A stretch of DNA of 64,000 bases from Pedobacter ghigonis (GTDB taxonomy: Bacteria; Bacteroidota; Bacteroidia; Sphingobacteriales; Sphingobacteriaceae). The notes beneath the pieces were generated by a model. That model had not been told where the DNA came from and did no database searches. It saw nothing but the letters and a program-made list of their open reading frames with translations. Positions 23,457-60,626 of the stretch are shown piece after piece (positions within the stretch are counted from its first letter, which is position 1; every line of letters begins with the position of its first letter). The position numbers and the translations under genes are program-made. The stretch covers positions 124,001-188,000 of the forward strand of contig NZ_CAESCM010000004.1 of NCBI RefSeq assembly GCF_903166585.1, written 5' to 3'.

Positions 23457-23522
23457 CGTCAACCTAAATTTATTTCAGGGTCTCTATTACCTGAGAGATA
23501 TTGAAATAAATTTAACATGACG
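23457..23522. repeat. Decayed GTCA...TGAC double-hairpin element
   Basis: The left arm begins CGTCAACCTAAATTTATTTC (23457) and the right arm ends TTTAACATGACG (to 23522). It matches the better-preserved element at 50308-50375 in arm sequence and spacing but has mismatches in both hairpins. It fills the spacer downstream of the Crp-like gene. Confidence 0.65.
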
Positions 23523-32676: not shown

Positions 32677-32760
32677 CGTCATTGCGAGGCACGAAGCAAT
32701 CCTACTACTATAGCTGGGCATCACTACCGCTTTAAGATTGCTTCGTGCCTCGCAATGACG
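32677..32760. repeat. Perfect 25-bp inverted repeat (CATTGCGAG family)
   Basis: The left arm 32677-32701 begins CGTCATTGCGAGGCACGAAG; the right arm 32736-32760 is its exact reverse complement. A 34-base loop separates them. It lies between pelA and uxaB, and the right arm ends 15 bases before the uxaB ATG. Confidence 0.85.
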
Positions 32761-50272: not shown

Positions 50273-50307
50273 GACGAGTTGAACAGACCTCTCAGAGCTT
50301 ATAGGAC

Positions 50308-50375
50308 CGTCACCCTGAATTTATTTCAGGGTCTCAATAGTACAGGAGAGATGCTGAAATAAATTCAGCATGACG
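50308..50375. repeat. GTCA...TGAC double-hairpin element
   Basis: Left arm CGTCACCCTGAATTTATTTC... (50308-50334) and right arm ending TTCAGCATGACG (50349-50375). Each arm folds on itself: CCCTGAA-tttat-TTCAGGG and ATGCTGAA-ataaa-TTCAGCAT. Differences between arms are compensated within each arm. It lies between convergent genes. Confidence 0.8.
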
Positions 50376-50417
50376 ATGTGATAAAAAATATGATCGGTTG
50401 AGTAACTGCATAAAACA

Positions 50418-55189: not shown

Positions 55190-55199
55190 CCCCATCATT

Positions 55200-55370
55200 A
55201 GGGGTGCCTTGTTTAAATAAACACAAAAACAGGCTGAGAACATACCCATTTTGAAGCATAAAGCCAGTAGCATAAAGCCTAAAGCGCTGATAAATCATCA
55301 AGCTTTAATCTTTTAGCTTTCAGCCTTAAGCTTCAAATGCACCTGATCCGGGTAATGCCGGCGTAGGGAT
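55200..55370 (+). promoter_or_regulatory. TPP riboswitch (THI element) with an inserted hairpin
   Basis: The conserved parts are present in order: AGGGGTGCC (55200-55208), GGCTGAGA (55232-55239), ATACCC (55242-55247), ACCTGATCC (55341-55349), GGGTAATGCC and GGCGTAGGGA (to 55369). Between ATACCC and ACCTGATC, where the THI consensus has only a few bases, about 93 bases are inserted (55248-55340). The aptamer arms themselves look intact. A short terminator follows at 55398, suggesting transcriptional control of the TonB-dependent receptor by thiamine pyrophosphate. Confidence 0.88.
55251..55336. repeat. Quasi-palindromic insertion inside the TPP aptamer
   Basis: The arm starting TTGAAGCATAAAGCC (55251) is matched imperfectly by the inverted arm ending GGCTGAAAG/CTTAAGCTTCAA on the opposite sense (to 55336), each about 35 bases. 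The sequence is built from AAAGC(C/T)-type units like those in the low-complexity tract at 57889-57920. Confidence 0.7.
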
Positions 55371-55397
55371 TGGAGTTATGGAAGTTTAACTAAAAAT

Positions 55398-55414
55398 CGG
55401 GGAAACCCCTTTTT
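55398..55414 (+). terminator. Riboswitch-associated terminator
   Basis: GGGG-aaa-CCCC followed by TTTTT (55399-55414), 29 bases after the aptamer. It is bracketed by exact 13-base direct repeats GTTTAACTAAAAA (55384-55396 and 55422-55434). Confidence 0.65.
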
Positions 55415-55442
55415 CCGGTTGGTTTAACTAAAAACAAGAACA

Positions 55443-57887
55443 TTGAAAAATTTACTATTTGCAGCGCTTGTTGCAATGTTGCCTTTCTTTGCATCGGCAC
55501 AATTTGCTGTTACCGGTAAGGTAACGGATCAAAACCGTAATGCCCTGCCTGGGGCCACCGTTAAAATAAAAAACAAGAAAACCATTGTACTGAGCGATGC
55601 AGGTGGAAATTTCACCTTATCAAACCTTGCTAACGGAAAATACACCTTTGTAGTGAGCTATGTGGGCTATAAAACTGAAGAGAAAACAGTAAGCCTTTCG
55701 CAAAACAGCACGATAGATTTCTCTTTAACTGCACAGAATTTCCTGGCCGATGAAGTGATTGTAAGGGCAACACGGGCCAACGAGAAATCGGCAACTACCT
55801 ATAAGAATATCGGCAAGGAAGAAATCCAGCAAAATAACTTTGGTCAGGATTTACCTTTTATTTTACAGAATACGCCGGGCGTAGTGGTTAATTCGGATGC
55901 AGGTGCAGGCGTTGGTTATACCGGAATCCGCATACGGGGTAGCGACAATAGCCGCATAAACGTAACGGTTAACGGCATTCCAATTAATGATAGCGAGAGC
56001 CAGGGAACATTTTACGTAAACATGCCCGATTTTGCTTCATCTGTAGATAATGTTCAGATTCAGCGTGGTGTAGGTACTTCAACCAATGGTGCCGGTGCAT
56101 TTGGTGCCAGTTTAAATATCCAGACTACTGCAAGCGAAACCGAACCTTATGCAGAAATAAACAGCACTTACGGTAGTTTCGATACCTGGAAAAACACCGT
56201 AAAAGTTGGAACGGGCTTAATTAATAACCGTTTTAGTTTCGATGGCCGTTTATCGAGAATCAGCTCTGATGGTTATGTAGACCGGGGTTCATCTTTACTT
56301 AAATCTTATTTCTTATCAGGTGCTTACCACGGCAACAAAGATTTATTGCGCGTAAATGTTTTCTCGGGCAACGAAAAAACTTATCAATCATGGAATGGTA
56401 TTCCGCAATCGCGTTTAGAAAATGATGTGGCTGGTATGAATGCTTATATAGCCCGGAACGAACTTAGTGCGGAAGATGCAGCCAACCTGTTAAACTCTGG
56501 AAGAAGATATAACAGTTTCTTGTACAATAACCAAACTGATAATTATGTTCAAAACCATTATCAGTTAATCTACGCCCGTCAGTTTTCTGATCAGTTCTCG
56601 TTTAACGGTGCTTTGCATTATACCCAGGGCTCAGGTTACTATGAAGAGTACCGCGTGCAGAATAAACTGGCTGATTATGGCTTAAATCCGATTGCCATTC
56701 CCGGAGGTACACCAATTACCAAAACAGACCTGATTCGCCGCCGCTGGTTAGATAACGATTTTTATGGCGTTACCTATGCATTTAACTACGTGCCGCAAAA
56801 GAACCTTAACTTTACGCTTGGTGGTGCTTATAACGAGTATAAAGGTGCGCACTTCGGACAGGTTATCTGGTCACAATATGCATCAAATGGCAATATAGAC
56901 AGGCATTACTATGATAACGATGGTTTTAAAACTGATTTCAATACCTACGGTAAGGTTAACTACAGCCCGATCGAATCGTTAAGCTTGTTCGCTGATTTAC
57001 AATACCGCCGCGTTTATTACGATATTGCCGGAACTGAAAACAAACTGAATACACTGGCCATCAACAAAACTTTAAATTTCTTTAATCCTAAGTTTGGCGC
57101 TACTTACTTCATCAATCCTGAAAGCAACGTGTATGCTTCATTCAGCGTAGCCAACAAAGAGCCAAACCGCGATGACTATACCGATGCAGCAACGGGTGCG
57201 ACTCCTAAGCCTGAAAGATTGAACGATTTAGAACTGGGTTACCGTTTTAAAAACGAAAAATTAAACATCGGTGCCAATGCCTACGGAATGTTCTATAAAA
57301 ACCAATTGGTGGTTACGGGCAAAATAAATGATGTGGGTGGCAATTTCCGCCAAAATGTAGACCGGAGTTACCGTCTGGGTATTGAGCTGGATGGTGCCTA
57401 CACCATTAGCAAGCAGTTTATCTTAAATGCCAATGCCGCTTTAAGTCGTAACAAAATCAAAAACTTTACCGAGTATTACGATGATTACGACAACGGCGGT
57501 CAGGTGGTAAATAACTATCAGCTTACCGATATTTCGTACTCGCCCCGTGCCGTACTTTTTGGCGAACTGGTTTACAAGCCGGTTAGTGGTTTTGCGGTAG
57601 CCTTACAAAGCAAATATGTAAGCAAGCAGTATTTAGATAACACCCAAAATAACGACCGTACCATAAATGGTTATTGGGTAAGCAATGCACGTTTAGGTTA
57701 CGATTTCAAATTTGCCGGCGTGAAGAACATTAATTTAGGCTTATTAGTTAATAATATCTTCGATAAGCGTTATGAAAACAACGGCTATACTTATGGTTAC
57801 CAGCTAGGCGGCAGCAGGGTTACCGAAAACTTCTTTTATCCACAGGCAGGAACTAACTTTTTGTTAAGCCTGAATGTGAAGTTTTAA
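55443..57887 (+). CDS. TonB-dependent receptor under TPP control (probable thiamine-compound importer)
   Basis: An 814-residue outer-membrane receptor. Signal peptide ends at ASAQ (20), then a CNA-B-like domain (AVTGKVTDQNRNALPGATV, to about 95), a TonB plug (about 115-230: LPFILQNTPGVVV, TGIRIRGSDNSRINVTVNGIPIND) and a 22-strand-type barrel ending FLLSLNVKF. The start is TTG at 55443; it begins the signal peptide exactly. The upstream TPP riboswitch is the basis for inferring thiamine or a precursor as substrate, as found for other TPP-regulated receptors of this phylum. A strong terminator follows. Confidence 0.9.
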   Translation: MKNLLFAALVAMLPFFASAQFAVTGKVTDQNRNALPGATVKIKNKKTIVLSDAGGNFTLSNLANGKYTFVVSYVGYKTEEKTVSLSQNSTIDFSLTAQNFLADEVIVRATRANEKSATTYKNIGKEEIQQNNFGQDLPFILQNTPGVVVNSDAGAGVGYTGIRIRGSDNSRINVTVNGIPINDSESQGTFYVNMPDFASSVDNVQIQRGVGTSTNGAGAFGASLNIQTTASETEPYAEINSTYGSFDTWKNTVKVGTGLINNRFSFDGRLSRISSDGYVDRGSSLLKSYFLSGAYHGNKDLLRVNVFSGNEKTYQSWNGIPQSRLENDVAGMNAYIARNELSAEDAANLLNSGRRYNSFLYNNQTDNYVQNHYQLIYARQFSDQFSFNGALHYTQGSGYYEEYRVQNKLADYGLNPIAIPGGTPITKTDLIRRRWLDNDFYGVTYAFNYVPQKNLNFTLGGAYNEYKGAHFGQVIWSQYASNGNIDRHYYDNDGFKTDFNTYGKVNYSPIESLSLFADLQYRRVYYDIAGTENKLNTLAINKTLNFFNPKFGATYFINPESNVYASFSVANKEPNRDDYTDAATGATPKPERLNDLELGYRFKNEKLNIGANAYGMFYKNQLVVTGKINDVGGNFRQNVDRSYRLGIELDGAYTISKQFILNANAALSRNKIKNFTEYYDDYDNGGQVVNNYQLTDISYSPRAVLFGELVYKPVSGFAVALQSKYVSKQYLDNTQNNDRTINGYWVSNARLGYDFKFAGVKNINLGLLVNNIFDKRYENNGYTYGYQLGGSRVTENFFYPQAGTNFLLSLNVKF

Positions 57888-57888
57888 G

Positions 57889-57920
57889 AAAGCTGAAAGA
57901 CTAAAGCTAAAAGCTGAAAG
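57889..57920. repeat. AAAGCT/GAAAG low-complexity tract
   Basis: AGCTGAAAGACTAAAGCTAA continuing to AAGCTGAAAG right after the receptor stop. The same words appear inside the TPP riboswitch insertion on either strand. Confidence 0.6.
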
Positions 57921-57968
57921 ATCGCCATTGCTTAAGGAACAACATCTCCTTAGGCAATGGCGATTTTG
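57921..57968 (+). terminator. Terminator after the TPP-controlled receptor
   Basis: ATCGCCATTGCTTAAGGA (57921-57938) pairs with TCCTTAGGCAATGGCGAT (57947-57964) as an 18-bp stem with one G-U pair, followed by TTTG. Confidence 0.82.
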
Positions 57969-58005: not shown

Positions 58006-58650
58006 ATGAAATACATCGAAAAGCTCCACTACATTACACACGACATCCCAAACCTTTCGCACGTAGAGCAGGCGCAGTTTGCATGCGAAGCAGGGGCGAA
58101 GTGGATACAATACCGTTGTTTGAGCAAAACCGATGAAACACTTCTGGCTGATATAAATGCCATTGCCGAAACCTGCGATGATTGGGGCACTACGCTAATC
58201 GTTACCGATCATGTTCATTTAAATGGCAAAGCCGATATTCAGGGTTTTCATATTGAGGATATGGATGCCGATTTCACAGCTATCCGCAACAAGGTGGGCA
58301 ACGATATTACTTTAGGTGGTTCGGCAAATACGATAGAAAACTTAATCCGTTTAGCTAAGCAAGGTGCAGATTATGTGGGCTTTGGGCCATTTGCTACAAC
58401 CGAAACCAAAGCCAACAATTTCCCCCTGTTAGGAATCGACGGATATTACGAAGCAATGCAAGAACTTAAGGCGGCAAATATTCAACTACCCGTTTTAGCG
58501 GTAGGCGGCATTAAAATTTACGATGTAGAAGCCCTAATGCAAAGCGGTATTTATGGCATCGCCGTTTCGGGAGCCATTAACTTTGCCGATGATTTTATAG
58601 CTGCTTATCAGGATTTTTACACAATGATTAAAGAAAGTGCTGTTAATTAA
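58006..58650 (+). CDS. thiE: Thiamine-phosphate synthase
   Basis: A 214-residue ThiE/TenI-family barrel. The enzyme joins hydroxymethylpyrimidine diphosphate and thiazole phosphate. Family blocks are WIQYRCLSK near 33, LIVTDHVHLNGKADIQGFHI near 63-83, GGSANTIE near 104, YVGFGPFATTETK near 125-137 and PVLAVGGI near 165. The pyrimidine-binding QYR replaces the more usual QLR. A TATATTGC box lies 28 bases upstream of the ATG, so it may have its own promoter after the receptor terminator. No other thiamine synthesis gene is in the window. Confidence 0.88.
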   Translation: MKYIEKLHYITHDIPNLSHVEQAQFACEAGAKWIQYRCLSKTDETLLADINAIAETCDDWGTTLIVTDHVHLNGKADIQGFHIEDMDADFTAIRNKVGNDITLGGSANTIENLIRLAKQGADYVGFGPFATTETKANNFPLLGIDGYYEAMQELKAANIQLPVLAVGGIKIYDVEALMQSGIYGIAVSGAINFADDFIAAYQDFYTMIKESAVN

Positions 58651-58709: not shown

Positions 58710-60002
58710 ATGTCGGAAAACGCTCTTCAAACCAACGCACCCTGGAATCTTTATAAAAAAATAGCTTTCAGGTTCTTCTTTATCCTGCTACCCCTTTTTA
58801 TCATCCTGAATAATAACGGCGCTTTCACTTTCCTCTCACGTTTTCTGCAGCTACCCGGGTTAGTGTTGCACCACTTTATTCCGTGGTTTGCTAAACATAT
58901 TATACATTACAATTACGATTTCACCATCTATACCAATGGGAGTGGCGATACTTCATATGATTGGGTACTGCTGCTTTGTATGTTTATTGTATCGGTAGCA
59001 GGCTGCATTATATGGTCGGTTTTAGACCGCAAACGCAAAAGCTACAATGCTGCCCATTATTGGCTCGTGGTGCTGGTAAGGTTTTACCTGGCCTTTACCC
59101 TGGTACTCTATGGTTTAATAAAGGTAATTAAGCTTCAGTTTCCCGATCCTTCTTTAACCAGACTGCTTCAACCCTTTGGTGATGCCTCTCCAATGGGCCT
59201 GGCCTGGACTTTTCTTGGTTTTTCTAAAGGCTACAACATTTTTATGGGAATTGTAGAAGTTTCGGCCATTTTACTCTTATTCCGCAGAACAGTAATTGTT
59301 GGTGCTTTTTTATCGCTTGCCGCAACTGGCCATGTAATGTCTATGAATTATTTTTTCGATGTGCCGGTAAAATTGCTCTCTACGGCGCTGGTGGTGATGA
59401 GTCTATTTATTTTAGCCCCACATTTTTTAAAACTATATCGCTTTTTTATCAAGTATGAAAACCAGCAGCTCGATAAAATGTACCGTCCAACCTTTAAGAA
59501 GCGATGGCTTTATATTTCGGCCTACAGCTTAAAGTATTTATACATCACTGCTTCTGTTGGTTACCTGTTGTATTCTTTTCTCCAGCAAACCAAAATTTAT
59601 GGCAGTGCCGCACCCAAACCATTTTTGTACGGCATTTATAATGTAGAAAACATGACACTAAAGGGAAAAACGCTGGCACCATTAACAACAGATAGCATCC
59701 GGTGGAAACAAATGGTTATTAGTTATGCGGGTTATGCAAGGGTAAAAACGATGAACGACAGTACGTATAATTTCTCAACAGTTTTTAATACTAAAAAGAA
59801 GGAACTCACACTGGGCTCACTAGATAAAGAATCGATTAAATATACTTTAACTTACCGCATTACCGGGAAAGACAATCTGATTCTTTCTGGCCTGAAAGGA
59901 AAAGATTCCATTACAGTAAGCTTTAAAAAGAAGGACCTCAAAGATTTCAGGCTAATTAACCGGGGCTTTCATTGGGTGAACGAACATCCGTACAATCGCT
60001 AA
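58710..60002 (+). CDS. DoxX-like integral membrane protein
   Basis: A 430-residue protein with about eight hydrophobic segments in its first 300 residues, including WVLLLCMFIVSVAGCIIWSV (about 85-104) and a DoxX-like core at about 120-245 (VLYGLIKVIKLQFPDPSLTRLLQPFGDASPMGLAWTFLG). The C-terminal 130 residues form a soluble beta-rich domain (KELTLGSLDKESIKYTLTYRITGKDNLILSGLKGKDSITVSF). No catalytic signature is seen and function is unknown. It is driven by a near-consensus promoter. The TPK-like and GNAT genes follow. Confidence 0.75.
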   Translation: MSENALQTNAPWNLYKKIAFRFFFILLPLFIILNNNGAFTFLSRFLQLPGLVLHHFIPWFAKHIIHYNYDFTIYTNGSGDTSYDWVLLLCMFIVSVAGCIIWSVLDRKRKSYNAAHYWLVVLVRFYLAFTLVLYGLIKVIKLQFPDPSLTRLLQPFGDASPMGLAWTFLGFSKGYNIFMGIVEVSAILLLFRRTVIVGAFLSLAATGHVMSMNYFFDVPVKLLSTALVVMSLFILAPHFLKLYRFFIKYENQQLDKMYRPTFKKRWLYISAYSLKYLYITASVGYLLYSFLQQTKIYGSAAPKPFLYGIYNVENMTLKGKTLAPLTTDSIRWKQMVISYAGYARVKTMNDSTYNFSTVFNTKKKELTLGSLDKESIKYTLTYRITGKDNLILSGLKGKDSITVSFKKKDLKDFRLINRGFHWVNEHPYNR

Positions 60003-60065
60003 TCATTTTACCCCCAACTGATTCTTCCTGCACTATACTTTGTGCGATTTTTTTATATTCGCAAC

Positions 60066-60626
60066 ATGTCATCACACCACATTGTAAAAGAAAAACAGGA
60101 ACCGGCTTTGTATATCGACGAGCTTGGTAATTTTAGCGAAGAGTTTTTGGGGCAGCTTTTAGAATGGAGCCCAACACTTTTGGTTAACGGCAATAATTAT
60201 GAAAAGATTATTTCGCTGGGACTGAAAGTAGATGTGCTGGTAAACGGCACCAATCAGGATGTTCAGGAAGATACCAAAACGATTCAGGGACCGGTTGATG
60301 CTTTGATGGTGGCCATTAACTTTTTATTTGAGGAAAAATATCCTGCAGTTAATGTAATTGCCAAAAAGTTCGATCTGGAAAAATTTGCCGGATTTGAAGA
60401 TAAAATTAACCTGGTGGTATTTACCGAACGTGCCAAGCATTACCCCATTAAATCGGGTTTTTCGGTTTGGAAACCAGCTGGCAGCGAATTTTTAATTCAT
60501 GGTAACCGTTATCTGGAAGTAACCAACCTGATGCAAACCGAAGAAGAAATTTTTGAAGTAGTAAACGATGGCTTTGTTGAATTTACCTTTTCTGGTCAAC
60601 CTATTTTTATAAGCGAACCGATATGA
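60066..60626 (+). CDS. Thiamine-pyrophosphokinase-like protein lacking catalytic motifs
   Basis: A 186-residue protein whose N-terminus (SSHHIVKEKQEPALYI, then LGQLLEWSP) is that of Bacteroidota thiamine diphosphokinases. At the position of the DGA motif it reads NGN; at GDFD it reads VNGTN; at DKTDLE it reads GPVDAL; and the RxDHT block is absent. The frame is open throughout, so it is a maintained but probably inactive relative. The ATG at 60066 is preferred over a GTG at 60042. Its stop overlaps the start of the GNAT gene (ATGA). A ligand-binding or sensing role is possible but unproven. Confidence 0.65.
   Translation: MSSHHIVKEKQEPALYIDELGNFSEEFLGQLLEWSPTLLVNGNNYEKIISLGLKVDVLVNGTNQDVQEDTKTIQGPVDALMVAINFLFEEKYPAVNVIAKKFDLEKFAGFEDKINLVVFTERAKHYPIKSGFSVWKPAGSEFLIHGNRYLEVTNLMQTEEEIFEVVNDGFVEFTFSGQPIFISEPI

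Follow-up and report, generated by a model that had tools for sequence, protein, structure and literature searches.

The window, a stretch of 64,000 nucleotides from a Pedobacter ghigonis contig, carries at 55443 to 57887 a gene for a TonB-dependent outer membrane receptor (Pfam Plug, TonB barrel and CarbopepD_reg_2), probably a thiamin receptor, and upstream of it, at 55200 to 55370, the conserved blocks of a TPP riboswitch; the receptor gene, the parts of the riboswitch and its leader, and the thiE-like gene lie on the forward strand. The apparent TTG start of the receptor gene at 55443 is kept in nearly all receptor orthologues seen, and is ATG in one (L131). The receptor is followed by a thiE/tenI-like thiamine phosphate synthase gene (58006 to 58650; Pfam TMP-TENI, E = 4e-39, with NCBIfam thiE below its cut-off), and paralogous riboswitches precede pnuC and thiD elsewhere in the genome; the genomic context is thus one of thiamin genes. 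Two further codirectional genes downstream (58710-60002 and 60042-60626) have no Pfam or NCBIfam match; by eye, the second resembles a thiamin pyrophosphokinase relative.

The THI core residues GGGGTGC, CTGAGA, ACCC, ACCTGAT, TAAT and CGTAGG are all found at the locus, and each of the conserved blocks announced by the sequence-only reading could be assigned coordinates. P1 joins CCATCATT (55192-55199) to AGTTATGG (55374-55381), the latter kept in orthologues, with seven of eight pairs formed. The block AGGGGTGCC (55200-55208) represents the 5' strand of P2 and the beginning of P3, and P2 pairs 55202-55206 with 55243-55247. A variable region corresponding to the P3 loop or P3a (55209-55231) is homologous in orthologues and leads into 55232-55247, where GGCTGAGA (55232-55239) and ATACCC (55242-55247) supply the 3' strand of P3, the conserved UGAGA bulge of the pyrimidine site and the 3' strand of P2; the region 55232-55247 is invariant in our aptamer alignment. 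The P4/P5 arm on the pyrophosphate-binding side, running from ACCTGATCCGG to CGTAGGGA, was located at 55341-55369 in covariance-model alignments, both with Rfam and with the model R1 described below; the conserved stretch in full is ACCTGATCCGGGTAATGCCGGCGTAGGGA, and the blocks recognised here are ACCTGATCCGGGTAATGCCGGCG (55341-55363) and TAGGGA. As P2, P3, P4 and P5 are all standard, the five helices P1-P5 are all able to form.

Between ATACCC and ACCTGATCC lie exactly 93 bases (55248-55340), in agreement with the sequence-only reading of about 93, at a position where the canonical joint J2/4 has the five bases UUUGA. These 93 bases are a low-complexity quasi-palindrome whose arms, identified from sequence alone as an inverted repeat (55250-55285 and 55302-55337), are 72% complementary. 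The expectation that the insert folds back on itself was borne out: as RNA it forms a single long imperfect hairpin of -26.6 kcal/mol, compared with a mean of -15.5 kcal/mol (sd 2.9) for dinucleotide shuffles (z = -3.8), and one of 200 shuffles folded as well. The helix (55250-55337) is flanked by AU and UGC, so that the joint in the window reads AU^UGC. The same register is found in the usual inserts of the genus, in which the helix begins two nucleotides past P2 (AU) and ends three short of ACCTGAT (UGC or UGA); the two flanks add up to an ordinary five-base J2/4, with the helix placed between joint bases 2 and 3. Identity with the optional stem P3a was ruled out, as the helix lies between the 3' strand of P2 (55247) and the 5' strand of P4 (55342), on the other side of P2. 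Words of the insert had also been noted after the receptor gene, at 57889-57920; this match is real (AAAGCTGAAAGACTAAAGCTAAAAGC) but comprises only one purine-rich arm, followed by an unrelated hairpin (57918-57967) rather than by a second copy of the palindrome.

With the Rfam model RF00059 the match is confined to the 3' half of the element (55326-55387), and P1 is paired wrongly with part of the insert; the score, 38.6 bits, is below the gathering score of 54.3, which is a detection threshold and not a biological feature. We built a covariance model with a fourth helix, R1, from 34 short-insert aptamers, excluding the window and all long inserts. With R1 the element in the window gives a full-length match of 96.3 bits (E = 2.7e-21), which attributes the shortfall under RF00059 to the J2/4 insert. 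The conserved blocks, the helices P1-P5 and this full-length match together uphold the earlier identification of a TPP riboswitch with its core kept. The paralogues before pnuC and thiD score 56 and 80 bits with R1, and the plain riboswitch of the genome 39 bits. R1 also matches ordinary TPP riboswitches in a phylum sample, and R1 matches alone are thus no proof of the helix. At its own cut-off, RF00059 recovered only one riboswitch when tested on a mixed set of 14 sources, that of Pantoea with a 38-nt insert, which shows that it tolerates some J2/4 inserts.

Four TPP matches of note were found in the window's own genome, and three of them, before the receptor gene, pnuC and thiD, carry a self-complementary insert (93, 85 and 84 nt, respectively) at the same spot; the best-scoring match has a plain five-nucleotide joint, TTTGA. 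Across 60 Pedobacter-like genomes, 49 of the matches listed lie above the Rfam cut-off and roughly 100 or more below it. All 60 of the sub-threshold matches examined have an insert at J2/4, of 23-98 nt; the 30 plain riboswitches that were parsed came from the top-scoring matches, so that their plainness is partly a matter of selection. A homologue of the window's leader is retained in 143 of 145 genomes of the genus, and throughout the genus the core residues stay the same while the insert varies.

We assessed the pairing of the inserts on 62 distinct examples from the genus, which share the register of the window. Their first seven pairs are standard in 96.1% of cases and Watson-Crick in 89%, and when the right arms were re-dealt among the sequences 2000 times the proportion of standard pairs averaged 60% and never exceeded 70%. 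Sliding the register by a single base reduced pairing from 0.97 to about 0.5, and the observed register is a sharp optimum in the genus, family and all-bacteria sets, none of which was pre-filtered for pairing. For the re-dealing of arms we prefer the fixed-register test given first, as the genus arm-shuffle with free register is weak (the arms are cut short). In the alignment of the 34 short-insert aptamers, changes on both sides are seen at all seven outer pairs; these aptamers were chosen for good pairing and thus document the variety of pair types and not an unbiased paired fraction, for which the figures from arm re-dealing and register sliding should be used. The sequence of the helix is nearly free, and its closing seven to eight pairs, which in the window join 55250-55257 to 55330-55337, are maintained.

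In the two closest orthologues of the window's riboswitch (L331 and L333) the insert is homologous and likewise 93 nt long, and is therefore not recent. Eight of eight outer pairs are kept, three compensations on both sides are seen, and the inner helix is partly eroded (eight broken cells); constraint on the helix looks to be limited to its outer part. Other orthologues have quite different palindromes in the identical register. For one receptor insert, from genome G041, identity with the thiD insert in the window's own genome is 92%, and three further genomes have receptor or thiD inserts that match it at 86-95%, which suggests that gene conversion may have copied inserts between paralogous riboswitches.

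Within the family Sphingobacteriaceae, the J2/4 insert pattern was found in 85 of 201 genomes and in 15 of 25 genera, and the reversed pattern in none; as the pattern accepts only inserts of 16-76 nt, and most Pedobacter inserts are longer and were not counted, the number of genera is at least 15. The J2/4 hairpin is thus common among the uptake riboswitches of this family. In a phylum sample the pattern was found in six of 395 genomes. When GTDB genomes were scanned for inserts of 18-48 nt, at least 120 stretches were obtained, the named matches including Sphingobacterium, Algoriphagus, Empedobacter, Chitinophagaceae, many Treponema and other Spirochaetes, Pantoea and a few Bacillota. Among the matches listed, nearly all of these inserts fold as hairpins, and the J2/4 hairpin is therefore a recurrent option of TPP aptamers. 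Overall, insert length ranges from about 19 to 98 nt, and both sequence and length vary freely while the arms stay complementary.

Quasi-palindromes of the kind seen in the insert also occur away from riboswitches. In the 1.26 Mb of the genome scanned we found 22 candidates of low complexity, which are 60-100 nt long and have a period of 6-9, for example L295:1350-1442 (also 93 nt), L293:4518-4590 and 1180-1278 of the window; when complexity is disregarded, there are 87 quasi-palindromes of comparable score, compared with 27 in shuffled sequence. The one at 1180-1278 (ATGGATGATGT.. / ..CATCTTCCATTTTA) is of the insert's type and is made of other words. These dispersed elements share neither ends nor sequence with the insert, which elsewhere in the genome has partial low-complexity matches of 31-38 nt at 84-94% identity. 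Two inserts from related genomes proved unique within those genomes by whole-genome BLAST, and a third had copies of 86-95% identity only inside other TPP riboswitches, with partial matches elsewhere; a multicopy element was rejected on the grounds that, within the genomes searched, nothing close to these three inserts was seen outside TPP riboswitches. The ends of the dispersed quasi-palindromes vary, and no target duplication is visible by eye at 55248/55340, although an old event could have erased one. To our knowledge, no name exists for these low-complexity quasi-palindromes, which are dispersed in the intergenic DNA of Bacteroidota. A further set of dispersed palindromes (32677-32760, 23457-23522, 50299-50384, L299:2752-2839 and L295:15535-15615) start with CGTCATTGCGAGG or CGTCATCTCGACTGGAGCG or contain TTTATTTCAGGGTCTC, and are REP-like in appearance.

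On the position, register, pairing, conservation and distribution of the helix, together with the full-length match to a four-helix model, the locus is very probably a complete TPP riboswitch controlling the TonB-dependent receptor, belonging to a lineage-wide variant whose accessory J2/4 helix turns the P1/P2/P4 three-way junction into a four-way junction. In Pedobacter this helix is usually long and of the low-complexity quasi-palindromic type that occurs elsewhere in the genome. The RNA would bind TPP, and the structure would either tolerate the helix or be stabilised by it. Because the hairpin would bring its own ends together, the P2/P3 and P4/P5 arms would stay linked with the number of unpaired joint bases unchanged, and could therefore still grip the ligand. 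The unliganded minimum-free-energy fold of the window, which favours pairing of AGGGG with an upstream CCCC, counts against this reading.

The sequence-only reading had proposed instead that a dispersed palindromic element inserted once, at this locus, into a working aptamer. Quasi-palindromes of 60-100 nt, one of them of exactly 93 nt, are indeed dispersed in the genome, and the insert has its partial matches there, so that the type of sequence was correctly recognised. A fresh invasion is nevertheless very unlikely: position and register are common to the pnuC and thiD paralogues, to orthologues and to at least 15 genera, including riboswitches with ordinary hairpins of 19-45 nt, the dispersed members share neither ends nor sequence with the insert, and the homologous insert is present in L331 and L333. 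What the orthologues reveal is a conserved helix with compensatory changes, though not P3a, at a site where the helix has been lengthened or replaced; the idea of a one-off event was thus largely overturned by the comparison that had been proposed as its check. That the aptamer was broken by the insert and that the locus is decaying would fit the sub-threshold Rfam score and the length of an insert in the ligand-gripping junction, but we consider it very improbable given the 96-bit R1 score, the invariance of the core across the genus despite the variable insert, and the near-universal retention of the leader. We give equally little credence to a hairpin that is a separate functional RNA element hosted by the riboswitch, such as a protein or RNase site or a second sensor; the inserts are unusually variable and reach 98 nt, and those of receptor and thiD riboswitches can be 86-95% alike between genomes, but they have no conserved loop or bulge sequence, and only pairing and position are kept.

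Downstream of the aptamer, a hairpin with the stem AATCGG/CCGGTT and a CCCC loop at 55406-55409 (55395-55420) is flanked by repeats of GTTTAACT (55384-55391 and 55422-55429) and is a putative expression platform. A CCCC-loop hairpin lies downstream of 57 of 69 genus riboswitches with a J2/4 helix, against 5.1 expected in shuffles; its stems differ in sequence yet keep their pairing, and the hairpin is conserved in the orthologous leaders L330-L359. The loop could pair with GGGG at 55201-55204 in P2, to which it is complementary. It may be a platform of the Bacteroidota type: in the absence of TPP the CCCC loop would take the 5' strand of P2, and in its presence P2 would be locked, which offers a concrete hypothesis on how Bacteroidota riboswitches act. 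An intrinsic terminator, GGGGAAACCCCTTTTT (55399-55414), was rejected as the conserved platform, as its G-run and U-run are lost in many orthologues and only the CCCC loop and stem are kept.

In its conserved blocks, its helices P1-P5 and its thiamin gene context the element agrees with the TPP riboswitch or THI element of RF00059, from which it differs by the additional paired helix in J2/4. Rodionov's 2002 work on the THI element reportedly mentions a 'facultative stem-loop'; the J2/4 helix resembles it in being a non-conserved stem-loop that leaves the core undisturbed. The same likeness holds for the non-conserved stem-loops described in general as 'variable insertions' of riboswitches, along with low-scoring matches having insertions at unusual positions (PMC2258182), whereas the J2/4 helix uses one site throughout a lineage, at a fixed 2-nt/3-nt offset and with quantified pairing. 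Like P3a, the optional stem-loop at the P2-P3 junction of TPP aptamers (Barrick and Breaker 2007, PMC2258182), it is an optional and variable addition, but it stands between P2 and P4, on the opposite side of P2. With the dispersed Bacteroidota quasi-palindromes the insert shares its length, a period of 7-8, a purine-rich left arm and imperfect pairing; it copies none of them, and its ends are set by the riboswitch register. Our literature search, with the 2002 THI-element paper outside its scope, found no description of a P2-P4 helix as a lineage-wide TPP feature.

Because of this helix, Rfam-based annotation overlooks most thiamin-uptake riboswitches of the Sphingobacteriaceae, a large soil and freshwater family, and a model with one additional helix recovers them at high scores. 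J2/4 is a site in the best-studied aptamer that accepts an arbitrary hairpin of 19-98 nt, which should be useful for engineering. We tentatively propose, as a possibility somewhat short of even, that TPP riboswitches have at J2/4 a hot spot where a hypervariable helix can be exchanged. In the Sphingobacteriaceae this helix would be ancestral to the riboswitches of thiamin uptake, and its body may have been replaced repeatedly (by low-complexity quasi-palindromes, by unrelated palindromes or by copying between receptor and thiD riboswitches), with selection acting on nothing but its closing pairs and the spacing of 2 nt and 3 nt; these riboswitches would then form a four-way-junction subclass with a natural 'plug-in' arm. 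In Treponema and related Spirochaetes (L169, L189, L191, L215 and L236) the J2/4 hairpin is 23-27 nt long, with a loop that often resembles UGCAUG or CGUAUG, and looks like an independent and more uniform version of the arm; two of these riboswitches (L169 and L191) lie directly before a gene for a solute-binding protein.
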